From contig JAMCWG010000125.1 of assembly GCA_023475235.1 (NCBI GenBank), positions 1 through 48,648 of the forward strand: DNA of 48,648 nucleotides, read 5' to 3'. Made by a program: the position numbers and the translations under genes. Source of the DNA: Chloroflexota bacterium. GTDB taxonomy: Bacteria; Chloroflexota; UBA6077; FW602-bin22; JAMCWG01. This document shows, one piece after another, positions 15,590 to 48,583 of the stretch. Numbering within the stretch: position 1 is the stretch's first letter; each line of letters opens with the position of its first letter. Under the pieces are notes generated by a model. The model had not been told where the DNA came from, made no database searches, and saw only the letters and a program-made list of their open reading frames with translations.

Positions 15590-16999
15590 TTGTCAGTGAA
15601 AATCCTTTTAGTAAACGCTATAGAGCCACGCAGGCACTTCCAACACGAGCCTGGCCTAGGTCTAGCCTACCTGGCGGCGTTCATACGCCAGCGTCGGCCG
15701 AATGCTCAGGTACGCATTGCCATCCGACAGGTGGCTGCAGAGATTGCGGATTTCGCCCCCGACTTCATTGGGATCTCTTCCGTATCCGAGAACTTTGATC
15801 GTGCCAAGGCCATAGCGAGCCTGGCGAAAAGGCACGGCCTGCCGGTGGTGATCGGCGGTGCCCACATTACGGCTCTGCCGCAGACCCTGCCACCTGAAAT
15901 GGACATTGGTGTTATCGGTGAGGGTGAGGAGACTCTACTTGAATTGACGGACACCCTGGACGGACACGGATGGACGCCAGCAGTGCTATCCCAAGTGGCT
16001 GGCATCGTGTTCCACACCGATGGTGGGCCGTGCGTGACCACGCCTCGCCCGGTCATCGAGGCGCTGGAGACCATTCCACCACCGGCACGGGATTTGTTGC
16101 CCATCGAAAAAGGTGGAACTGTGACTATGCTTTCGTCGCGGGGGTGTCCGTATAAGTGCGTTTTTTGCTCCTCGACGCGCTTCTGGAACAAGATGAGGAT
16201 GTTCTCCGCCGAGTATGTGGTGCGCGAGATGGGGCAGGTGCTGTCCGACTACCGGCCCAGCCATATCTCGTTCGTGGACGATCTGTTCGTCGCTTCTCGC
16301 CCGCGACTGCGCCGGCTGGCGGACTTGATCGAGCAGCGAGGCATCCACCGCCGGGTGGAGCTGAGTGTCAGTTGCCGGGCCAATCTGGTGGACGAAGAGC
16401 TCGCACGGCTGCTGCGCCGTATGAACGTGGTCCTGGCGTGGATTGGCCTCGAGTCGGGCAGCGAAGCGGTCCTGGAGTACCTCAAGGGTGGGAACGTCAG
16501 CGTGGCGGACAACGAGCGGGCGGTCGAGACACTCTCCCGGGCCGGATTGGAGGTGCACGGCACCTTCGTCATCGGCGCGCCGCGAGAGGCATCCGCCGAT
16601 ATCGAGGCCACCTACGACTTCATCAAGCGCAGCGCCCTGGCCGATTTCTGCGTCTATCCCCTGAGCCCTCTGCCCGGCACACCCCTTTGGGACTACGCGC
16701 TCCAGCGGGGACTGGTCAGCGAGGATATGGAGTGGGGCCGGCTGAACTATGAGACTGTTGGGCAAGCGAACATCAGTCTTTCCGAGCTCGTGTCGCGGGA
16801 TGAGATGGCCCACTTCTTCTCCATGTTTAGCGGGGAACGAAAGCGCCGGCGCCGGCGCCGCTTCTGGCGCAGGTGCCTTCCCCATCTCTTCGCTCAACTG
16901 TACCGCCGGCCCCATCGAATTGTCCCGTGGCTACGGAAGCGCCTGGCGGGCCGATGGGGCCACGGGCAGTCAAGCACAACGAGGATGACCCGTGGCTGA
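15590..16999 (+). CDS. B12-binding-domain radical SAM protein
   Basis: N-terminal cobalamin-binding-like domain (IGVIGEGEETLLEL), SSRGCPYKCVFCSS (CxxxCxxC). TTG start. Confidence 0.92.
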   Translation: MSVKILLVNAIEPRRHFQHEPGLGLAYLAAFIRQRRPNAQVRIAIRQVAAEIADFAPDFIGISSVSENFDRAKAIASLAKRHGLPVVIGGAHITALPQTLPPEMDIGVIGEGEETLLELTDTLDGHGWTPAVLSQVAGIVFHTDGGPCVTTPRPVIEALETIPPPARDLLPIEKGGTVTMLSSRGCPYKCVFCSSTRFWNKMRMFSAEYVVREMGQVLSDYRPSHISFVDDLFVASRPRLRRLADLIEQRGIHRRVELSVSCRANLVDEELARLLRRMNVVLAWIGLESGSEAVLEYLKGGNVSVADNERAVETLSRAGLEVHGTFVIGAPREASADIEATYDFIKRSALADFCVYPLSPLPGTPLWDYALQRGLVSEDMEWGRLNYETVGQANISLSELVSRDEMAHFFSMFSGERKRRRRRRFWRRCLPHLFAQLYRRPHRIVPWLRKRLAGRWGHGQSSTTRMTRG

Positions 17000-17906
17000 G
17001 CAGGCAAGCGCTCCAACTGTGGATTTGACGGTATCCATCATCAGCTTCAACACGAAGGACCTCCTGGTCAATTGCCTGGAGTCGATCTACGCCAATACCG
17101 AAGGAATCTCTTTCGAGGTCATAGTGGTGGACAATGCTTCCACCGACGGCAGCGCGGAGGCGGTGCGGACCCGGTTCCCCCAGGTCAGGCTCATCGCCAA
17201 CGACCGCAACCTGTACTTCACCAAGGCCCACAATCAGGCTATCGGAGTGAGCGCCGGACGCTATGTGCTCATACTCAACTCGGATACTATTCTCCTTCCA
17301 GGCACCCTGGAGAAAATGGTCCAGTTTATGGACGCTCATCCCCAGGCCGGGGCGGCGAGTTGTGTTTTCCTCAATCCGGACGGCACTATCTGGCCCAGTT
17401 GCTGGAAGTTCAAGACCCTGTCGGCCGTCTTGTGGGGGCTGAACATCCCGCTGAATCTTTTCCCCAACGCCCGGGCGCGCACCGAGCCCCGCATGCTCGA
17501 TTGGGACCGCACCACTCTACGGGAAGTAGACGTGGTGGTAGATGCCTTCATGATGGTGAGGAGAGGGGCCATCGAGGAAGTCGGCACGTACGACGAAACC
17601 CTGCTACTTTACGCCACCGAAGACGATTTCTGCTTGCGTTTGAAGTCGGCCGGTTGGAAGATATATCATGTGCCTGAAGCCAAAATCATTCACATCAATA
17701 GGGGATCGGTGGATCAGGTACGACTGCTGACAATTCAGTCAATATATCGTCGCGACACAGTGCGTTTTCTCCGTAAACATCACGGCTTCGGGATTGCCCT
17801 CATTGGGAACGTGATCATCTCTTTGGATCTAGTCATTGCAGGGGCCTACCTTTTCATAAAGGAGATGTTCCAACGGGACCGTGGGAAGCGTCCGGAGCGC
17901 CGGTAG
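16992..17906 (+). CDS. GT2 glycosyltransferase, rhamnosyltransferase/WbbL-like
   Basis: VSIISFNTKDLLVNCLESIYANTEGISFEVIVVDNASTDGSAEAVRTRFP; DAFMMVRRGAIEEVGTYDETLLLYATEDDFCLRLKSAGW. Confidence 0.93.
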   Translation: MAEQASAPTVDLTVSIISFNTKDLLVNCLESIYANTEGISFEVIVVDNASTDGSAEAVRTRFPQVRLIANDRNLYFTKAHNQAIGVSAGRYVLILNSDTILLPGTLEKMVQFMDAHPQAGAASCVFLNPDGTIWPSCWKFKTLSAVLWGLNIPLNLFPNARARTEPRMLDWDRTTLREVDVVVDAFMMVRRGAIEEVGTYDETLLLYATEDDFCLRLKSAGWKIYHVPEAKIIHINRGSVDQVRLLTIQSIYRRDTVRFLRKHHGFGIALIGNVIISLDLVIAGAYLFIKEMFQRDRGKRPERR

Positions 17907-17951
17907 CATTCGCATGCTGAACTATTTTGCCAAGAACGAGAAGCGGTGACC

Positions 17952-18125
17952 TAGGGCCTTTTCAAAGTCCACCGATCCGGCTGCTCCCGGGGTTTACCTC
18001 ACCCCCTGGCCCCCTCTCCGCGCGCGGAGAGGGGGTGGCCGAAGGCCGGAGGTGAGGTTAACTGCCGTTGGTAAGGCAACCGAAGTGCCGTCTGCTTCCT
18101 GGCTGACGACTTTGAAAAGGCCCTG
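17952..18125. mobile_element. MITE-like non-autonomous element with flanking direct repeats
   Basis: 17-bp perfect TIR AGGGCCTTTTCAAAGTC (17953-17969) / GACTTTGAAAAGGCCCT (18108-18124); 9-bp direct repeats GCGGTGACC at 17943-17951 and 18126-18134. Confidence 0.85.
17997..18057. repeat. Structured palindromic core nested in the MITE
   Basis: CCTCACCCCCTGGCCCCCTCTCCGCGCGCGGAGAGGGGGTGGCCGAAGGCCGGAGGTGAGG; second copy at 48524-48583. Confidence 0.85.
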
Positions 18126-18176
18126 GCGGTGACCACAATTGTGTTGACAGGCGCGGCTGTTTAGAAAGAACTGTGC

Positions 18177-19004
18177 ATGAATCATAGAGCTCAAGTTCAG
18201 GAAGGTTCGTCGATCTACCGACTCTCACGTAACTGGCCTGTGTGGCTGAGAACCCTAAAAGGCTATTACGTGGCAGCAGAACGGTGGTACGGACGAAAAC
18301 TCCGGCGCACGATACTGCATCCTGAGTACATAGGGGCTCGCGAGCTTCACAGGGCTATGAAGATTGCCAGTCATTGGGTACACGGGGTACTCTTAGATGC
18401 GGGGTGCGGTGCCAAGCCTTATTATAGCTTACTAAGACCGAAACTGGAACGCTACATCGGTCTAGACTATCCACCATACCTGGAAAGCGGTGCCCAGCCA
18501 ACACAAACGGAGGTTTTTGGTGATGTATGTCGGTTGCCTTTTCCAGACAGCTACTTTGACTGCGCCTTGTGCACCCAGGTCTTAGAGCACGTGTCCGAAC
18601 CAGGTATGGCAATAGCAGAGTTGCATCGAGTGCTGGCACCAGGAGGTGTTCTGATCCTTACAGCCCCGCGATCGGAGGCCGTTCACGGAGCCCCATACGA
18701 CTTTTTCAGATATACGAAATATGGCCTTTGGAATCTGCTGCAGAAGGATGGCAAATTCGAGGTGGAGAGAACGGAGTACCTCGGTTTCTTCTGGGCAGAT
18801 GTGTCTCGCCAATGGGATGTATATGCATTCGAACACTTGGGAGGCCCAACGTTAGTCGGTTTCGTTCTGCGACGCATTCTGCTGTTTCCTGCTCTATGGA
18901 TTTCCATAGTCCTGGTTAACATCGTGGGCGGCATTATTCTAGACAGAATCGACAAGATTGAGGCAAGCTCGCCGAACTACCTGGTAGTTGCCAGGAAAAA
19001 ATGA
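18177..19004 (+). CDS. SAM-dependent methyltransferase
   Basis: VLLDAGCGAKPYYSLLRPKLERYIGLDY; DVCRLPFPDSYFDCALCTQVLEHV (Methyltransf_11). Confidence 0.88.
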   Translation: MNHRAQVQEGSSIYRLSRNWPVWLRTLKGYYVAAERWYGRKLRRTILHPEYIGARELHRAMKIASHWVHGVLLDAGCGAKPYYSLLRPKLERYIGLDYPPYLESGAQPTQTEVFGDVCRLPFPDSYFDCALCTQVLEHVSEPGMAIAELHRVLAPGGVLILTAPRSEAVHGAPYDFFRYTKYGLWNLLQKDGKFEVERTEYLGFFWADVSRQWDVYAFEHLGGPTLVGFVLRRILLFPALWISIVLVNIVGGIILDRIDKIEASSPNYLVVARKK

Positions 19005-28857: not shown

Positions 28858-29102
28858 ACCCTCACCCGCCCTCGCTTCGCTCGGGCGACCTCTCCCAGAG
28901 GGAGAGGTGAGGATAATACGGGCCCAAGGCCCCCTCTCCTCGCCCAGGCGAGTCGTGCCCGAAGGGTATCTCGCCAAAGGCCCGCCAAAGGCGGGTCCGC
29001 CTTTGGCAGACGAGTCGCCTTCGGAGACCTGCGGTGCGGCGTTGCGCCGCTCCGCTACGGACCTGTGGCGACCTCTGGGAGAGGGTTGGGGTGAGGGCGT
29101 GC
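28858..29102. repeat. Composite palindromic repeat cluster
   Basis: CCCTCACCCGCCCTCGCTTCGCTCGGGCGACCTCTCCCAGAGGGAGAGG ... GACCTCTGGGAGAGGGTTGGGGTGAGGG with nested hairpins. Confidence 0.75.
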
Positions 29103-48523: not shown

Positions 48524-48583
48524 CCTCACCCCCCGCCCCCTCTCCGTAAACGGAGAGGGGGAGACCGAAGGTCGGGGGTGAGG
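48524..48583. repeat. Second copy of the structured palindromic core
   Basis: CCTCACCCCCCGCCCCCTCTCCGTAAACGGAGAGGGGGAGACCGAAGGTCGGGGGTGAGG. Confidence 0.85.

Follow-up and report, generated by a model that had tools for sequence, protein, structure and literature searches.

The element described here lies within a 48,648-nucleotide stretch of DNA from a Chloroflexota bacterium (contig JAMCWG010000125.1), which was analyzed as a whole and is referred to as the window. The insertion lies in a gap of roughly 100 bp that separates two co-directional genes, neither of which it breaks. As the initial annotation had proposed, these neighbors are a glycosyltransferase gene and a methyltransferase gene of lower GC content (51.3%, compared to 63.4% for the window). 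The features of the locus are as follows:

16992–17906, plus strand: family 2 glycosyltransferase gene (context), which stops 45 bp upstream of the element
17943–17951, unstranded: left 9-bp target-site duplication GCGGTGACC, identical to 18126–18134
17952–17969, plus strand: 18-bp left terminal inverted repeat, in which the outermost base is unpaired
17970–17996, plus strand: left shell, conserved among own-genome copies
17997–18057, plus strand: 61-bp core hairpin (cargo), with constant arms and a tip that varies from copy to copy
18010–18035, plus strand: 26-bp perfect palindrome, the tip of the core
18058–18107, plus strand: right shell, conserved among own-genome copies
18108–18125, minus strand: 18-bp right terminal inverted repeat, in which the outermost base is unpaired
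18126–18134, unstranded: right 9-bp target-site duplication GCGGTGACC, identical to 17943–17951
18177–19004, plus strand: SAM-dependent methyltransferase gene (context), which begins 51 bp downstream of the element

Perfect 17-bp inverted pairs with a spacing of 40–400 bp occur once in the window and 0 times in 50 base-shuffled windows. The 17-bp perfect terminal inverted repeat (TIR) that had been described from the sequence is present at 17953–17969 and 18108–18124, as are the identical 9-bp direct repeats outside it. A single mismatched base, T 17952 on the left and G 18125 on the right, separates each 9-bp repeat from the TIR. Because this outermost position is C/G in other genomes, where it completes an 18-bp TIR, both bases were assigned to the element, which therefore spans 17952–18125 (174 bp). 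It is gene-less, and all open reading frames longer than 100 amino acids in its vicinity are part of the flanking genes.

The position between two co-directional genes and the strong RNA folding of the element (z of −7.15) could also suit a structured non-coding RNA or an intrinsic terminator of the gene cluster, and the RNA of the element, if transcribed, would give a very stable stem. However, neither a terminator-like site nor an accepted Rfam match was found at the element, and dozens of copies are located at unrelated loci, many with a 9-bp duplication of their own. These locus-specific duplications refute an RNA or terminator as the main explanation, and we regard it as exceedingly improbable that either is present here instead of a mobile element. 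A secondary effect of the element on transcription is possible.

The assembly that contains the window (G000; 2.85 Mb, 75% complete, 196 contigs) yielded 62 BLAST matches to the element. Searching this genome for the 17-bp TIR, as the initial annotation had suggested, returned 40 exact matches, compared to 0 exact control matches, and 63 with at most two mismatches, compared to 1 for the reversed pattern used as a control. Exact (9/9) duplications flank 12 copies, namely 11 paired copies, including that of the window, and a twelfth case (L023) with the duplication TTCTCAAAC. The family thus consists of short units with terminal inverted repeats and without a transposase gene, which recur at unrelated loci together with target-site duplications. 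Contig ends of the assembly are often occupied by copies, so the real copy number is probably higher; the elements probably break assemblies and are under-counted. At one copy (L014), 32–34 bp of the right flank are repeated at C99:55818–55851 and C176:10852–10884, and the match begins near the target repeat.

Within the own-genome copies, the arms of the core are constant, and the tip ranges from the 26-bp palindrome of the window copy to palindromic modules that together exceed 400 bp. The L023 copy has its core in the opposite orientation, in a shell that is otherwise collinear. The initial annotation had stated that the core also occurs elsewhere in the window without the TIRs. Relatives without TIRs do exist, but they are not the same sequence: a diverged 61-bp core copy without ends lies at 48524–48583, with 2–3 mismatches per arm, and an intergenic hairpin mosaic of palindromic modules lies at about 28859–29100, of which some modules, near 28949–29020, are shared with MITE tips. 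Several own-genome core copies (at L018, L020, L045, L070, L334, L336 and L337) end in ...AATGAAAAGTTTCCATGTCCCTTCGGGACGC or similar rather than ...GACTTTGAAAAGGCCCT, and these ends are a second, diverged end type with the same right half of the shell. The idea that all cores outside the listed TIR pairs of this genome are free-standing was rejected, as several sit in this diverged second shell.

The ends of the element connect it to the ISAs1 family of insertion sequences. The proposed look for full-length insertion sequences with the same ends recovered ISAs1-family elements with identical or near-identical ends and 8–9-bp duplications. The own genome holds one intact ISAs1 element (L003:1684–2956), which encodes a 405-amino-acid transposase (NF033564, E 2e-51) and is bounded by AGGGTCATGTCAAAGTC, a sequence that agrees with the MITE ends in 14 of 17 bases and differs in 3. 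This element directly adjoins a MITE copy; the two are separated by the 9-bp repeat GCGGCCGGT, to which the outer repeat of the L003 element corresponds at 7 of 9 positions. Five own-genome MITE copies have one end exactly of the L003 type, which fits an exchange between the MITE and the L003 element. No full-length insertion sequence with exact AGGGCCTTTTCAAAGTC ends was found in the incomplete own-genome assembly. In another genome, a Dehalococcoidia MAG, a 1197-bp ISAs1 element (L232) has ends identical to those of the MITE and a target duplication of 8/9, with its coding sequence in two overlapping frames. The ends of a further ISAs1 element (L191) have 1 and 0 mismatches to the MITE, and L192 and L199, which matched in the ISAs1-transposase search and have related ends, are flanked by exact (9/9) 9-bp duplications. 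ISAs1-family target duplications are 8–10 bp long, and the 9 bp of the MITEs, as well as the duplications of L192, L199 and L232, agree with this length. L003, L191 and each of the two frame pieces of L232 scored above the NF033564 cut-off. The L003 and L232 transposases share only 29% identity over 224 positions, and therefore the end sequence is common to a broad part of the ISAs1 family. Outside the ends, no likeness between the ISAs1 insertion sequences and the element was noticed.

Because the element is multi-copy and gene-less, has 9-bp duplications and carries ends shared with autonomous ISAs1 transposons, we classify it as a MITE, in support of the original proposal of a MITE with a target-site duplication. 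Judged from the sequences, it is most likely moved in trans by an ISAs1 transposase. Several other ISAs1-related sites were noted. A pair of ends 2.8 kb apart on contig C122 was considered as an insertion sequence and rejected; the ends point outward, each being part of a cut MITE copy, and a gene lies between the two copies. The ISAs1 frame of L232 is split at about 1340–1365, and that of L112 at the matching place, in the same A run (7 in L232, 6 in L112), which may mark either a hot spot of decay or a site of programmed frameshifting. Fragments of another, distant ISAs1 transposase gene lie at C54:14017–14404 of the own genome (L047, L048).

Public genomes were then scanned for the exact 17-bp TIR. 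Among the matches listed are several Chloroflexota MAGs, in which end pairs with 9-bp duplications were found. The exact TIR is rare: of 400 genomes sampled from the own phylum, only 3 have it, the own genome counted. In six TIR-bearing genomes, the 18-bp end (at most two mismatches) occurs 13 to 106 times, compared to 0 for the control. We scored 98 sampled elements from these six genomes, the own genome and one further record (8 genomes). Their duplications match at 9/9 in 46 elements and at 8/9 in 15 (61 in total), whereas a shuffled-partner control gave 0.5% and 0.3%, respectively. Of the named genomes in which paired ends and duplications occur, all are Chloroflexota except for one Armatimonadetes record (L106).

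The interiors of these 98 elements are almost all one of about six hairpin-repeat families. Genomes G400–G405 had been picked for carrying the TIR and not for their cargo, while 40 stretches were picked by cargo. The families and the genomes in which they are enclosed are:

CGTC-type REP dimers: G400, G402, G403, G405
TCATTCTGAGC: G401
ATTGCGAG: G403, G404
GAGCCTGTCGAAC: G400, G405
ATCAGGATT: G402
CTCACC core: G000

One kind of end therefore encloses different hairpins, and in one genome a single hairpin is enclosed by two types of end. This bears out the earlier impression, drawn from the window alone, that shell and cargo are separable. In G401, 16 of 20 cargo-chosen copies are bounded by ISAs1-like ends; some have ends of a second type, CAGGACGATTGCAAAGTC, and 10–11-bp repeats. 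In G400, where cargo copies were chosen for having no listed end, 18 of 20 were endless even under relaxed criteria. Bound and free hairpin copies therefore both exist. Element lengths are near-constant within a genome (mostly 143–146 bp in G400 and 123–125 bp in G401), and the position of the hairpin within the element is fixed.

The presence of a hairpin repeat in nearly all of the elements, drawn from about six unrelated sequences, raises the question of whether the hairpin is a working part of the MITE. A strong hairpin might favor transposition, for instance because it draws the ends together or insulates the unit from nearby transcription, so that shells keep or regain one. The folding of 20 interiors is in line with this (median z of −4.1, compared to −0.2 for random window segments). 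However, the Armatimonadetes element, L106, has the same end type and an exact 9-bp duplication around an unstructured interior (z of +0.6), and the hairpin thus seems non-essential. Since hairpin families are also found without ends, as in the G400 sample, we consider such a role unlikely. The free hairpin copies, together with the inverted core of L023, could also indicate that the hairpin is mobile by another route and inserted into the MITEs after these had spread, in which case the nesting would reflect a preferred landing place. Against this, the fixed hairpin place and the near-constant lengths in G400 and G401 fit one founder event followed by amplification, and the L023 inversion could also come from recombination between the palindromic arms of the core. 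Later insertion therefore appears quite improbable to us.

Taken together, the element is very probably a non-autonomous ISAs1-type MITE; it is most likely moved in trans by ISAs1 transposase and would carry a captured hairpin repeat as a passenger. The ISAs1 DDE transposase, supplied in trans, would bind the ends and move the unit to loosely chosen 9-bp targets. An end pair would capture a resident, dispersed, REP-like hairpin repeat, and the unit would then amplify, an order of events suggested by the near-constant element lengths within a genome. The interior hairpin would travel along as a passenger, so that one kind of end could disperse several hairpin families, and its tip may diversify afterwards as palindromic modules are exchanged or inserted. 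The data suggest that one transposon shell repeatedly adopts and spreads resident hairpin repeats.

Taken alone, the element is of a known kind, a MITE; what is new is the exchangeable REP-like cargo within common ISAs1 ends. It resembles members of the ISAs1 family (NF033564) and bacterial MITEs in its identical or near-identical ISAs1 ends, its 9-bp duplications and its short, gene-less, multi-copy form, but unlike the former it has no transposase, and its interior is a dispersed hairpin repeat. It also resembles the REPINs moved by RAYT tyrosine transposases in being a small, non-coding palindromic repeat dispersed in the genome. In contrast to REPINs, which have neither DDE-type TIRs nor a target duplication, its TIRs are long and of the DDE type, and its target duplications measure 9 bp. 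Cargo from G400, G402, G403 and G405, in many elements of all but G402, corresponds to the CGTC-tagged REPs as set out in a broad survey, with a CGTC head, an 8–9-bp stem starting AT, a 4–5-nt loop, a CCA tail and an arrangement as inverted dimers (PMC3733652). The dimers here sit within ISAs1 ends and target duplications, and the window's own core (CCTCACC...GGTGAGG) belongs to another hairpin family. REP dimers within longer palindromes have been reported in a few species, such as A. variabilis and H. neapolitanus (PMC3733652). These share with our elements the nesting of a REP dimer in a larger inverted repeat, but the accessible text gives no transposase family or target duplication for them. 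According to the same text, CGTC REPs are apparently without a dedicated transposase (PMC3733652). No account of the element's family was found in the accessible portion of the open-access literature on ISAs1 with MITE.

Units that join palindromic repeats to ISAs1 ends and duplications provide a concrete and testable spreading route for CGTC REPs, and would account for hairpin cargo that varies between genomes while the ends stay constant. We tentatively extend this, with some doubt, to the view that ISAs1 end pairs are general carriers of palindromic repeats in this Chloroflexota group and in the own genome, and that a substantial share of mover-less repeats, CGTC REPs included, might be spread by ISAs1 transposase in trans, with the same ends adopting unrelated hairpins and the same hairpin entering different ends.

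The shell was absent from 60 relatives, the closest of which belong only to the same order, and the core alone matched in 20 of them. The initial annotation had also called for comparison with an empty site; the joined flanks of 12 copies gave no junction-spanning match, and hence no empty site, in 30 relatives. The closest case to such a comparison is a nested MITE in L164, where one MITE lies within the end of another and has on both sides the repeat CTTTCCAAAG, which belongs to the end that it interrupts. The inner MITE (L164:1360–1646) has ends CAGGGCCTTTCGATTATT and bears other hairpin repeats.
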